A stretch of 64,000 nucleotides of DNA, taken from an uncultured cyanobacterium. Lineage in GTDB: Bacteria > Cyanobacteriota > Cyanobacteriia > PCC-6307 > Cyanobiaceae. The translations under genes and the position numbers were made by a program. The notes beneath the pieces are model-generated. The model was given only the letters and a program-made list of their open reading frames with translations. It had not been told where the DNA came from and did no database searches. Within the stretch, counting starts at the first letter, position 1, and every line of letters starts with the position of its first letter. The stretch lies in the NCBI GenBank assembly GCA_903935205.1, contig CAIZQU010000109.1, forward strand, positions 40,210 through 104,209, in the 5' to 3' direction. Below are positions 32,693-63,898 of this stretch, one piece after another.

Positions 32693-33544
32693 ATGGGCGG
32701 CATCTTGAAGCTCCTGATGCGACGCGACCGCCTGGTCCCTGCCATGGGGGTGGGGTTGGGCTGTGTGTTGGCCGCCATTCCCCTCGGCAGGGCCGTGCAC
32801 CAGGCCCTCTACCGCCCGCTGCTGCCGAGCGGCGTGCCGGCATTCGGCAGCACCCCCACGGGAGGGTTCGCCAGCCGACCGCCCAGCGAGGGTCTGCGGC
32901 CTGATCCGATCGACTTCAGCACCGAGGAGCTGCGTGAACTGAATCGCCGTTTCGGTGTGCATGGACCCCAACCCCATCTGGCCCAGCTGTTCACCGCCGG
33001 CATCGACAACCTCCAGCCGCTGCGCAGCCGCACCCTTGTCCGTCTCGAGGAGCTGCGCCCTCTGATCCTGGTGGAAGCCCATCGCCACCAGCTCAATCCG
33101 ATGCTGCTGGCGGCTGTGCTGTTCGACGAAATGCAGCATGCCAAGCCCGGCGAGAACACGCCGATCGCCGCTGCTTCGGGGTTGTTCCACACCCATGGCC
33201 CGGCCCAGCTGGGGGTGGGCGAGATGGTCAAACAGGGGCTCCTCAGCGCCGATGCCAGCCCGGAGGAGATCGAGCAGGCGCGCCTGGAGCTGCTCGACCC
33301 GGAGCGCAGTGTGGCGCTGCTGGCCAGCAAATTCGTGCGGCTGAGGGCCGCCCTTGACCTGCCCCAGCAGCGGCAGCTGATGGCCAGCCGTTCGCCGCGG
33401 GATGCCAAGGCCCTGGCAACCCTGGCCTATCTGCACAACGGCAAGCTCGACTATCCGGGTCGGGTGCTGCGTTACATGCAGGACCCAGAACTTCACGCCC
33501 TGATCTATGGCAGCCGCAACCGACCCACCAGCCCAATGATCTGA
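32693..33544 (+). CDS. lysozyme/transglycosylase-like envelope protein
   Basis: N-terminal TM; LRPLILVEAHRHQLNPMLLAAVLFDEMQHAKPGEN...GPAQLGVGEM. Confidence 0.6.
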   Translation: MGGILKLLMRRDRLVPAMGVGLGCVLAAIPLGRAVHQALYRPLLPSGVPAFGSTPTGGFASRPPSEGLRPDPIDFSTEELRELNRRFGVHGPQPHLAQLFTAGIDNLQPLRSRTLVRLEELRPLILVEAHRHQLNPMLLAAVLFDEMQHAKPGENTPIAAASGLFHTHGPAQLGVGEMVKQGLLSADASPEEIEQARLELLDPERSVALLASKFVRLRAALDLPQQRQLMASRSPRDAKALATLAYLHNGKLDYPGRVLRYMQDPELHALIYGSRNRPTSPMI

Positions 33545-33690: not shown

Positions 33691-33825
33691 TGGCCTGTTC
33701 TGTTCCTTTCTGTTCTGTTCCTTTCTGCCCTTATCTGACCTGACCCGATCTGCCCTTATCTGACCTGACCTGACCTGACCTGACCCGATCTGAGCCGACC
33801 TGAGCTGCCCTGAGCTGCCCTGATG
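33691..33825. repeat. degenerate pentanucleotide tract (CTGTT/CTGAC/CTGCC)n
   Basis: ctgttctgttcctttctgttctgttcc...ctgacctgacctgacctgacctgaccc...ctgagctgccctgagctgccctgatg. Confidence 0.75.
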
Positions 33826-33884
33826 CGCTGGCCAGATCAGCGGATCCGATCATCAGAGCGGCTGGGTACCTCTGGCGCATCGAG

Positions 33885-34135
33885 CGACACAGCGGGCCCC
33901 GAACAGACACAGATCCGATCCGGCGCCTGGCGCGGCACCATCCTGGGACCCGGGAGATCGACAAGACCGCAGAGCTTTCGCCGTGGGATCCAGTGCTGTG
34001 AAACCCTTCTGCCCATGGGTGTGGGGCCAACATCTCGGAGCGGATGAGAATCCCTTCAGACTCTGATTCGCTCCATGGCGAAATCACAGCATCGATCTGG
34101 GGGCAATACGGCTACGCCCCACAGGCTCCCCGATC
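33885..34135 (+). repeat. Intergenic family copy A
   Basis: ccccgaacagacacagatccgatc...catcctgggac and ttctgcccatggg...gccaacatctcggagcggatgagaatcc...tggggGcaatacggctacgcccc align with copy B. Confidence 0.65.
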
Positions 34136-34148
34136 AGCCAGCCGGGCT

Positions 34149-35021
34149 TCAGCAGATCACACCGAGGGCCGCGAGCCGGCGGCGCAGGGCGGTCCAGTCG
34201 AAGCTGCGGGGATCGGAGCGCTCCAGACCGAGATCCACATGACGGTGGGTGGTGATCGCCTCCGGCGCGATCGGATATCGGCCCATCCAGTCCGCCAGCA
34301 CCACCGCCAGGGCGTCGTACTGGGCGCTGCTGTAACCGCTGTGGGAGGGGCCGTCATCTTCGCCATCGAGGGGGGTTTCGAGGCTGATGTGCAGGGCGAA
34401 ATTGTTGACCGAGCCACTCACCTTGGGGCTGGTCATCGCCCATTGACCCTGGAAGGCGGAGTAACCGGCACCGAAGGCGCGCTTCTCGGGCGGCACGGTG
34501 TCGACCACCTGGCCATCACCACCGATCAGGGTGTGATAACTGACCTGCTGGGCATCGTCAGGATGGTGCGTGCGGAAGGTGTTGATCGCCGATTCCATCC
34601 CATAGACGGTTTCATGGAGCACCACCAGCCGAGGCCGGGGATCGAGGCGGTTGCCGCCGATGTCCTGGCGAAGGCGCTCGCCGTAGTTGCTCGGATCGAT
34701 CACCACCCGCTGGCGCCGTTGGGGCAGGCGGGCGAGCAGCCCCTGCAGGCGGGCTTCCTCCTCGGCATCGCGGGTCGGGCAGACCTGCCGCAGGGGTGAC
34801 GTCCAGGTGGCCTGGCCGGGGGGCGCGCTGATCCGGCGACGGGGCTGGGCCGGACTGGGTCGGGGACCCTCCGCCAGCAGATCGATCAGGGAGGGGCGAT
34901 CGCCGGGTTGGTCCGCCAACCGCTGCAGCAGGCCGCGGGACAGCCAGAACAGGCCCCCGAGGCTGAGGGCGGTGGCACCGGCGAGGGCGACCAGCAGGGG
35001 GCGGCGGCTCTGGGCGTTCAC
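34149..35021 (-). CDS. N-acetylmuramoyl-L-alanine amidase (Amidase_2)
   Basis: LVVLHETVYGMESAINTFRTHHPDDAQQVSYHTLIGGDGQV...NNFALHISLE...TTHRHVDLGLERSDP. Confidence 0.85.
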   Translation of the reverse strand: MNAQSRRPLLVALAGATALSLGGLFWLSRGLLQRLADQPGDRPSLIDLLAEGPRPSPAQPRRRISAPPGQATWTSPLRQVCPTRDAEEEARLQGLLARLPQRRQRVVIDPSNYGERLRQDIGGNRLDPRPRLVVLHETVYGMESAINTFRTHHPDDAQQVSYHTLIGGDGQVVDTVPPEKRAFGAGYSAFQGQWAMTSPKVSGSVNNFALHISLETPLDGEDDGPSHSGYSSAQYDALAVVLADWMGRYPIAPEAITTHRHVDLGLERSDPRSFDWTALRRRLAALGVIC

Positions 35022-36799
35022 GGCATCAGCTCCAGCCAGCGGCGTCGCCGTTCGGCCGCCTGGGGCGGAGCGGAGGGATCGAGCTGCAGCTGCCAGCGTT
35101 CCACCTGGGCCGGGCCGGGCCGCAGGGCCGTTTCGCGGATGCGGCCATCACGGCAGTAGAGCAGGGGCAGCCCGGTGGCGGCGGGTTCCGTTGCCGAGAT
35201 CAGGCTCTGGAGCAGCGGACCCAGCTGTTCGGCAGAGCGCAACCGCTGGCCGGCAACCGCCAGCAATTCATCGCCAACCTGCAACCCGGCCGCTTCTGCC
35301 GCACCGCCACGACTGACCCGATCCAGTGTCATTCCAGGTCCGCACTGCCAACCGGGTTGGGGATGGCTGCCGGCCACGGCGTTCAGGCTCAGGCCCACAT
35401 CAGCCAGGTAGGAATTGAGATCCAGATCTTCTCTGGAATTCAGCCAGATCGGCAGCAGGGTGGACAGATCGGCGGCGTGGCGCCCGAAAACCGCCAGCAG
35501 ATCCTGCTCCCGATAGCCCCGCCCCTGGCGGCCGTGGCTGCACCACAGCTCCTGCAGCACCGCCGCCAGGCTGGAGCCGTGGCGGCGCAGGTGCAGATCA
35601 AGCGCCAGGGCGATGACCGCACCCTTGAGGTAATAGCTGATCTGGCAGTCGCTGTTGTGGGGATCGGGGCGATAGAGCTTCACCCAGGCCTCTTCGGCAC
35701 TGGCCCGCAGGCTTTGCACCCGCCGGCCGGGGGTGAGCAGATAGCGGCTCAGCTCCTCGCCGAGGTCCTGGAGCAGGTCGGCTTCACTGGCCAGACCGGC
35801 GGCCACCGGGATCAGCTGGTCGAAGTAGCTGGTCACCCCTTCGGCGAACCACAGGGTCGGCACGATCACGGCCCTGTCGTAGTCGATGGGGGTGAGTTCG
35901 GCGGGCCGCAGCCGCCGCACATTCCACTGGTGCAGGTACTCGTGGGCCACCAGCTGCAGCAGCCGCCGCCGACCCTGGGGTTCGCGCAGGGTGGTGCGGC
36001 CGAACTGAAGCACGCAGCCGTCGTCGTGCTCGAGGCCGCCGTATCCCTTCTCCAGCAGGTGCAGCACCACCAGGTAGGCGTCGCTGGCGGGGCGCTCCAC
36101 CCCCATCAGGCGGCAGCAGGTCAGGGCGATCCGCTCCACATCGGCCAGCCAGGACGGGTCTCGCCCCGGCAGGTCATCGCCCCAGCTCACCCAGCGGTGG
36201 GGAACACCGGCCACCATGAACTGGTGGCAGGGATGGGGACCGGCCTCGATCGGGCTGTCGATCAGCTGGTCGAAATCGCGGGCGAGCCAGCCCTGGTCCT
36301 GTTCCGGCAGGGGCAGAAAGGCCCGCCAGCCCTCCGGCAGGGTCAGGCTGAGTCGGTGGGGCGACCAACGCTCCCCCTCCAGCTGCAGGGCCACCCCGGC
36401 CAGGCAGAGGAAGCCGTGGTCCCCGTTGAGCTGGCAGGTGCGCACCGAGAGATCGGTGGCCAGGATCCGCCAGCAGAGCTGCACCGGTGCCTGACCCTCG
36501 CAGTGGATCCGCCAGCAGGAGGTCTCCAGTCGCTCGATCGCCAGGTCGCGATCACCCTGGCGGGCGCTGAGGCCCTCCAGGGTGCGCACGTAGTCGCGGA
36601 TCAGGTAGGAGCCGGGGGTCCAGGCGGGCAGACGCACCAGGGTGGAGCTGCGCCGGGGGTGCCAGCGCAGGGTGGCCCGCACCAGATGCCGCTCGGGCGC
36701 CGTCAGATCCAGGTGCAGGTGGGGGGGCGACCAGGTTTCAGGCACCGAGGCTGACGACGGCGTCGGGCAGGTGGCGGGCGGCGGCGGCGAGGGCCTCAC
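35018..36799 (-). CDS. M61 family metallopeptidase with PDZ domain
   Basis: LLQLVAHEYLHQWNVRRLRP (HExxH), LWFAEGVTSYFDQL, PDZ-like GGAAEAAGLQVGDELLAV. Confidence 0.92.
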   Translation of the reverse strand: MRPSPPPPATCPTPSSASVPETWSPPHLHLDLTAPERHLVRATLRWHPRRSSTLVRLPAWTPGSYLIRDYVRTLEGLSARQGDRDLAIERLETSCWRIHCEGQAPVQLCWRILATDLSVRTCQLNGDHGFLCLAGVALQLEGERWSPHRLSLTLPEGWRAFLPLPEQDQGWLARDFDQLIDSPIEAGPHPCHQFMVAGVPHRWVSWGDDLPGRDPSWLADVERIALTCCRLMGVERPASDAYLVVLHLLEKGYGGLEHDDGCVLQFGRTTLREPQGRRRLLQLVAHEYLHQWNVRRLRPAELTPIDYDRAVIVPTLWFAEGVTSYFDQLIPVAAGLASEADLLQDLGEELSRYLLTPGRRVQSLRASAEEAWVKLYRPDPHNSDCQISYYLKGAVIALALDLHLRRHGSSLAAVLQELWCSHGRQGRGYREQDLLAVFGRHAADLSTLLPIWLNSREDLDLNSYLADVGLSLNAVAGSHPQPGWQCGPGMTLDRVSRGGAAEAAGLQVGDELLAVAGQRLRSAEQLGPLLQSLISATEPAATGLPLLYCRDGRIRETALRPGPAQVERWQLQLDPSAPPQAAERRRRWLELMP

Positions 36800-37082
36800 G
36801 GGCGGCGTAGGCGCGGGTCAGGCGGGAGAGCAGGCCATCGAGGTCGCGGCTGCGGCTGAGCCGTTGCAGATCGGCCACCAGGGCGAGGCCGCCATCGGCG
36901 CTGCGCTGCCAGCCCAGGGTGAGGCCATCGGGCAGGGTGACCCGCAGCTCGACCCGCTGCCGTTCCGGCCCGAAGCCGTTGAGCACCCCGCCGGCCTCGG
37001 GATGGAGGCCGAGGCTCTCCAGGCTGGCGGCAAGGCAGTGGGTATCCCGCAGCACGGTCGGCAGGATCGAGAGATGGGACAT
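36738..37082 (-). CDS. ycf35: DUF1257 family protein (Ycf35-like)
   Basis: MSHLSILPTVLRDTHCLAASLESLGLHPEAGGVLNGFG. Confidence 0.82.
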   Translation of the reverse strand: MSHLSILPTVLRDTHCLAASLESLGLHPEAGGVLNGFGPERQRVELRVTLPDGLTLGWQRSADGGLALVADLQRLSRSRDLDGLLSRLTRAYAAREALAAAARHLPDAVVSLGA

Positions 37083-37292
37083 CGTTGCCAGGCTCCAGGC
37101 ATTGGCCATGCTGGTGGGAACCTAGCGAGACCGCCAGGGTGATCCGGTCGCCGATGTCACCGGCCATCGAGCTCGTCGCTGGGGAGTGGCCGCGCCGGCC
37201 CCCCAGCGCCGCCCGGCGGCGGCAGTTGCGGCCGCCGCTGCCAGCAAGCCGCCGCTGCCAGCAGCCCCGCTGCCGGCAGCCAGCCCAGCCCA

Positions 37293-37448
37293 TCAGCAGC
37301 CCTTCTCCGGTTTCTTTTTATCTTCTGGGCACCTCGAAAAATTGTCCAACCCGCCCCTGCCCGGAGCCAGTTGCGGGTAGCCGTAATGGCTCCAGATCCA
37401 TGGGGAGATCTCGCTGTGGAACGGAACGGGGTCTCCCATGGATCCCAT
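37293..37448 (-). CDS. candidate 51-aa small protein in copy B
   Basis: MGSMGDPVPFHSEISPWIWSHYGYPQLAPGRGGLDNFSRCPEDKKKPEKGC; pattern shared with copy A ORF (LHGEITASIWGQYGYAPQAP). Confidence 0.4.
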   Translation of the reverse strand: MGSMGDPVPFHSEISPWIWSHYGYPQLAPGRGGLDNFSRCPEDKKKPEKGC

Positions 37449-37635
37449 CCGCAACGCGATGCTGGCGCGGTGCCAATGGGCAGAATGAAGGCGCCACAAC
37501 AGATCGCGAGATGAAGGTCCAGAGATGAAGGTGCTGAGATGAAGGTCCTGAGATGTTGTTGATGCCCTGCGTCTCAGGATGTGGCTGTGATGTGGGCCCG
37601 ATCGGCTCTGTCTCTGTTCGGGATCTGGTCTGCTG
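37320..37635 (-). repeat. Intergenic family copy B with 14-bp tandem array
   Basis: Reverse complement cagaccagatcccgaacagagacagagccgatcgggccc...cctgagacgcagggcatcaacaac matches copies A and C; array gagatgaaggtcca/gagatgaaggtgct/gagatgaaggtcct at 37508-37549. Confidence 0.75.
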
Positions 37636-37742
37636 ACCCCTGCGCAACAGGCTTCTGGCGATGACCGCCACCCGATCCGCCGAGCGCCTTTTTCCCTCGT
37701 TCCAACCCCCGATTGCCGCGCGCTTTCGCCCCTGCCGCACCG

Positions 37743-59500: not shown

Positions 59501-59589
59501 GAGTTTGCTGACCCGATCCCTCCATCACCCCCCTCCCAGGACGACGGCAGCGGTGCGGCCCCTTCTGTGGAGGGGGTGCCAGAAAGAGG

Positions 59590-59659
59590 TTGCCAGGGAG
59601 GGGTTGCCAGGGAGGGGTTGCCAGGGAGGGGTTGCCAGGGAGGGGTTGCCAGGGAGAGG
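59590..59659. repeat. 14-bp tandem repeat (4 perfect + 1 near-perfect unit)
   Basis: ttgccagggagggg x4 then ttgccagggagagg, with degenerate flanking units. Confidence 0.95.
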
Positions 59660-59972
59660 GGGCCAGCAGAGAGGGTGCCAGCGAACGCCCGGAGTTTCCT
59701 CAGGAGCCTGCTGGGTCGTCAGGAAACCTGCAGGCCCAGGGTCGTCAGCCGCTGAGCCGCCAGCAAGCCACGCTCTGACGGCTGGGGTGGCTGGGTTGGT
59801 CCCGCTGCCAATGCCGGGTGCGCCCTGTTCAGCCGCCTCCCAGGGGCGCACAGAGCGCCATCCGGCGAGGCCCGGTGGCGGCTTCGGGGCCCGGGTTGCT
59901 GCTGCAGTCGGCCCCGTGGCCTTCCGCGAACCCACCGCGGGCCAGGCTGGGGGGCGCCCGAGGCCCTGCAGC

Positions 59973-63615: not shown

Positions 63616-63634
63616 TGAGCCTGTGGCCCATCGC

Positions 63635-63842
63635 TCGACAGACCCGGCCTCGAACAAAGGCCGACCCGATCGCGCGGCGAGGGCGACCGCAGCCTGAGAC
63701 AAAGGGCATCAACAACGCCTCAGCACCTTCATCGCGCGATCGAGAATCACACGATCGAGTATCGCGAGATTGAGTATCTCCAGATTCAATGTCACCAGAT
63801 CTAATATCACCAGATCCAGTATCGCCAGATCCAATGGACTGC
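63635..63842 (+). repeat. Intergenic family copy C with 15-bp tandem array
   Basis: cagacccggcctcgaacaaaggccgacccgatcgcg...cctgagacaaagggcatcaacaac matches copy B; seven imperfect 15-bp units from 63738, consensus gatcnagtatcncca. Confidence 0.8.
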
Positions 63843-63898
63843 CATCCTTTTGACCATAGTTAGGGCTTGCTGAGAAAGCCATATCCACTGCAGCGCAG

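Follow-up and report, generated by a model that had tools for sequence, protein, structure and literature searches.

The window analysed here, a 64-kb stretch of DNA from an uncultured freshwater cyanobacterium, contains three related intergenic segments (copies A, B and C), and the question they raise is whether such segments hold a small gene for a conserved peptide, specify a structured RNA, or are members of a mobile repeat family. An initial annotation had recognized the relationship and had proposed a peptide with the motif H-x-E-I-x3-I-W-x2-Y-G-Y for copies A and B. Our comparison of the copies across the host genome, together with the sequences at their ends, indicated that the family is very likely an IS1182-associated MITE.

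A dispersed repeat with inverted ends

The kinship of the three segments was upheld, as all of them match one profile, whereas their proposed extents proved too narrow. In a flank alignment, the shared sequence extends 18 bases upstream of the aligned core, passing from AGGAGCCTGTTGCGCGTA into GGTCGACAGG... and terminating in ...GGCTACGCGCAACAGGCTCCT. The terminal inverted repeats, unnoticed in the initial annotation, are 17-18 bp long (GGAGCCTGTTGCGCGTA...TACGCGCAACAGGCTCC) and perfect in young copies, and including them extends copy A to ~33868-34129 and copy B to ~37655-37363. A search of the own genome with the terminal repeat pattern (two mismatches or fewer) gave 72 matches, against 0 for the reversed control. 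Within the window, the profile gave no noteworthy match other than A, B and C. The features are as follows.

32693..33544, + strand: ORF preceding copy A and treated, with uncertainty, as a gene; its 3′ end faces the element
33868..34129, + strand: copy A of the repeat, old; profile match 33885-34129 (E = 2e-51), terminal inverted repeats and flanks
33868-33884, + strand: left terminal inverted repeat of copy A, GGTACCTCTGGCGCATC, 6 mismatches to that of the family
34113-34129, + strand: right terminal inverted repeat of copy A, TACGCCCCACAGGCTCC, 2 mismatches
34149..35021, - strand: gene beyond the right end of copy A; its 3′ end faces the element, with the stop 20 nt from that right end
37293..37499, - strand: chance ORF holding the proposed peptide, 68 aa from a TTG; unsupported as a gene
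37363..37655, - strand: copy B of the repeat, old; profile matches 37638-37534 and 37529-37363 (E = 3e-44 and 2e-24), terminal inverted repeats
37655-37639, - strand: left terminal inverted repeat of copy B, GAAGCCTGTTGCGCAGG, 4 mismatches
37379-37363, - strand: right terminal inverted repeat of copy B, 2 mismatches
37508..37555, - strand: 14-bp tandem duplication within copy B, GAGATGAAGGTCCT x 3.4
63616..63866, + strand: copy C, old; profile match 63635-63741 (E = 1e-23), weak tail to ~63866, right end unrecognisable
63616-63632, + strand: left terminal inverted repeat of copy C, TGAGCCTGTGGCCCATC, 5 mismatches, with a TGA triplet directly before it
63738-63835: 15-bp minisatellite expanding the interior of copy C

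Copy B is split into two profile matches because of its 14-bp tandem duplication. Duplications of the same unit length (GGGCATCAGGAACA and variants) were also seen within several own-genome copies (L010, L012 and L017). Two further arrays were noted in the window: a degenerate CTGAC pentanucleotide array of 17.8 copies just upstream of copy A (33735-33823) and a 14-bp minisatellite (GGAGGGGTTGCCAG, ~6 copies) at 59569-59681.

The host genome (3.8 Mb; searched as 3.82 Mb in 169 contigs) carries ~60 dispersed copies of the element by profile search, some of them truncated. BLASTN against this genome returned 19 matches with copy A as the query and 53 with copy B. The iterated profile gave 55 matches across the window and 42 fetched loci, corresponding to 52 distinct copies by count, and 9 additional copies, some truncated, were found by the profile at further loci. 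The full element is 267 bp long and lacks both a transposase gene and a coding signal. Identity among 29 near-full-length copies ranges from 57% to 97% (median, 73%). The family thus includes both old and young copies. Those of the window (A, B and C) are old and decaying, as the initial annotation had surmised for A; younger rounds are indicated by copies in other parts of the genome that are up to 97% identical.

At the fetched loci, no element copy overlaps a called gene, and the sites prefer gene 3′ ends, with 16 of the 28 that were scored lying between convergent genes and 1 between divergent genes. Genes were called by a simple script relying on the codon usage of nine ORFs from the window, and single boundaries may therefore err. 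At 32693..33544, for instance, the script left the ORF uncalled and extended an opposite-strand gene instead.

The proposed peptide frame

The translations proposed for copies A (LHGEITASIWGQYGYAPQAP) and B (FHSEISPWIWSHYGYPQLAP) are correct, and the ORF of copy B is present, although its length of 51 aa depends on the start chosen, with a TTG start giving 68 aa. The claim of coding constraint, which had been drawn from differences at third codon positions, was contradicted by the wider family. Pairwise difference rates in the motif frame were 0.31, 0.24 and 0.21 at codon positions 1, 2 and 3, respectively; the third position is therefore the most conserved, the reverse of what is expected of coding sequence. 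Moreover, the 3′ end of the frame, TACGGCTACGCGCAACAGGCTCC, which reads Y-G-Y-A-Q-Q-A, corresponds largely to a one-frame translation of the right terminal inverted repeat, and the 3′ half of the motif enters the repeat.

A repeated small gene for this peptide would account for the presence of the intact motif in 5 of 46 copies, found among relatives of A and B, and for an open frame in 30 of 46 copies when shuffles predict 20. However, another forward frame is open more often (37/46), the proposed frame contains an in-frame stop in 16 of 46 copies, and further copies are frame-shifted. The initial annotation had held that stops or frameshifts in most copies would mark a noncoding repeat; stops by themselves occur in a third of them, and it is consequently the codon-position result that carries the argument. 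A new peptide family was rejected on the basis of codon positions, stops and frame shifts, and we consider a gene of this kind extremely improbable. This removes a false peptide family, and the ~60-copy dispersed repeat of the host genome gains an origin, as described below.

IS1182-family ends, target sites and gene 3′ ends

Ends of this kind also delimit complete IS1182-family insertion sequences of 1.80-1.84 kb in related Cyanobium/Synechococcus genomes. Six complete copies were bounded (1,798-1,839 bp), and each of the six is flanked by CTAG at either end, the left repeat being preceded by CTA and the right one followed by TAG. Several IS1182-family transposases of these genomes have the terminal repeat, exact or with one mismatch, ~100 bp upstream, and 25 of 42 genomes of the genus, the own genome included, contain a match to such a transposase. 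A pattern of CTAG joined to the IS end matched 38 stretches of the GTDB species genomes; 36 of these belong to records with the label cyanobacteria, Cyanobium, Synechococcus or Synechococcaceae, and the other two to MAGs with the labels Acidobacteria and Gammaproteobacteria.

The transposase model NF033551 matched with E-values of 6e-88 (C156, own genome), 8e-94 and 2e-100. At C156, CTAGGAGCCTGTCGCGCATA lies just upstream of the IS1182 transposase, of which 454 residues were read, and this left end agrees with the terminal repeat of the MITE at 15 of 17 bases, with CTA before it. The match of this transposase to the 488-position model is confined to positions 3-343 and no right end could be located, so that it is probably broken; the own draft genome yielded no intact IS1182 element bearing such ends. 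The MITE and the IS elements have only the terminal 17-18 bp in common, their interiors being unrelated, which indicates that the MITE is not a simple internal-deletion derivative.

The family thus shows hallmarks of a MITE, being short and without a transposase gene, with terminal inverted repeats, many dispersed copies and ends common to an autonomous element. It is an ordinary kind of element, new as a family within the reach of our searches. The shared ends and the shared target suggest that an IS1182-family transposase probably moves the repeat. The same MITE might instead be mobilised by a transposase from a different family whose ends are similar, which is compatible with the lack of a visible intact helper in the own genome and with the occurrence there of other DDE transposases; however, IS1182 elements of several related genomes bear exactly this 17-bp end together with CTAG, and we regard this alternative as improbable.

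Two other elements with ends of this type were observed. A second, unrelated element of ~248 bp has the same kind of ends (GGAGCCTGTCGCGCATAGAAAAACTGCGTCACC...) and occurs at L098:1989-2236 and at both ends of L099 (G000:C24, C39), where it occupies both ends of contig C39; it is probably another IS1182-linked MITE. A facing pair of terminal repeats in L168 (G254:C17:2066-2632) spans 567 bp, too short for an IS1182-family transposase gene, and is possibly another non-autonomous element.

The target preference is common to the IS1182 elements (CTAG at all six complete copies) and the MITE, whose copies favour CTAG and CYRG flanks. Among 70 element ends, CTAG flanks 20, CCAG 19 and CTGG 6, CTAG being about as common as CCAG. 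Identical tetranucleotides on both sides were seen in a minority of copies (CTAG in three, CTGG in two, CGAG in one and CCAG in one), and the commonest pair is CCAG/CTAG, with six copies. These flanks suggest a likely target duplication at insertion of either 2 bp (TA) or 4 bp (CTAG), two lengths that are indistinguishable because the target is a palindrome.

Base composition predicts ~174 occurrences of the tetranucleotide CTAG in the 64-kb window, but only 8 are present, a ~20-fold deficit. In 17 cases, an adjacent gene has its stop codon exactly at an element end, and 14 of these stops are TAG, 2 TAA and 1 TGA. The other facing genes (n = 36) end in TGA in 31 cases, TAG in 4 and TAA in 1, so that TAG is in excess at junctions (Fisher p = 6e-7). 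At two loci, both converging genes stop exactly at the element: C132 (TAG, TAG) and C78:29256 (TAG, TAA).

These observations could be accommodated by a scheme in which an IS1182-family transposase would recognize the terminal repeats in trans and carry the element into CTAG sites, duplicating a short stretch of the target (CTAG, 4 bp, or TA, 2 bp). With CTAG very rare in the genome, some of the available sites would be the C+TAG of stop codons, where the first G of the element, or the duplicated CTAG, would rebuild TAG and leave the gene intact; an excess of copies exactly on amber stops would thereby be explained. The junction stops of converging genes would likely arise because each strand of CTAG includes TAG and the insertion restores the site. 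We read the amber-stop preference as target choice combined with the survival of harmless insertions, rather than as a dedicated mechanism. Whether, more generally, CTAG serves the IS1182-group elements and MITEs of picocyanobacteria as a safe harbour, with an amber stop, or the amber stops that two converging genes share, rebuilt through duplication of the site and the initial G of the element, and elements accumulating harmlessly at gene ends, is a matter on which we judge the chances to be even. If it does, elements at gene ends may alter transcript 3′ ends, and the scheme would provide a simple, testable route by which a transposon could enter a gene at its extreme end and leave it unharmed.

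The position of the copies at gene 3′ ends could also be expected of a family of structured non-coding RNAs or terminators, selected there and with the inverted repeats as a stem. Consistent with such a family, 16 of the 28 scored sites are convergent and 1 is divergent, young copies fold strongly as whole elements (z about -5), and 79.7% of cells are paired over the alignment in the young-copy structure compared with 33-43% when it is slid. The strong whole-element fold of young copies arises because the two ends pair, however, and the interior folds near the level of shuffled sequence (median z, -1.2); several old copies, including A, have lost the fold (z about 0). Changes on both sides were counted at 26 pairs against 17-24 in slid controls, and the RNAalifold consensus of the alignment comprises 6 pairs only. 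A known RNA family was set aside, as the window has no Rfam match. The element is probably not a selected RNA, an independent internal fold being unsupported, and selection on an RNA would leave the shared IS1182 ends and the CTAG flanks unexplained; we give this possibility little credence and retain the MITE reading.

Distribution and comparison with known systems

Further copies, which the initial annotation had proposed to seek by BLASTN in related genomes, are numerous in the own genome, but the element was absent by BLASTN from 41 genomes of the same genus, and the one match outside the genus was a 37-bp stretch. The exact left-end pattern was absent from the GTDB species genomes, searched without the own genome, no match to the element was obtained in plasmid and phage collections or, with one pattern searched, in IMG/VR, and the profile found nothing convincing over 0.58 Mb of relatives' loci except one own-genome locus in the set. 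The element looks limited to the host species or its close kin. A search of the genus with the joined flanks of two copies, C70 and C132, yielded no clean empty site. The gene pair of C70 had no side-by-side match in relatives. In the relative G024 (L241, G024:C3), the gene junction that carries a copy at C132 holds DNA whose reading by eye gives the beginning of an IS1182 transposase; it is thus a second occupied site rather than an empty one, which suggests that this gene junction is a shared insertion hot spot.

In the literature, we found nothing on an IS1182-linked MITE in Cyanobium or on IS1182 with CTAG. Bacterial MITEs, including Nezha and the ISSoc2-derived elements of cyanobacteria, have been reviewed (PMC10969869); like them, the element described here is short, non-coding, multicopy and mostly intergenic with inverted ends, a likeness in descriptive features. 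The BrickBuilt MITE of Porphyromonas gingivalis is species-limited and intergenic and contains a minisatellite with a 23-nt unit (PMC4596501). Our MITE resembles it in being apparently species-limited and intergenic, and copies B and C and several elsewhere contain 14-15-bp tandem units; unlike BrickBuilt, with its 23-nt unit and unrelated host, most copies here are without an array. The IS1182-family insertion sequences of Cyanobium and Synechococcus (NF033551) are like the MITE in their 17-bp terminal inverted repeat, which is exact in several genomes, and in their CTAG flanks, but they are ~1.8 kb long and carry a transposase gene, whereas the MITE is a 267-bp non-coding element with an unrelated interior.
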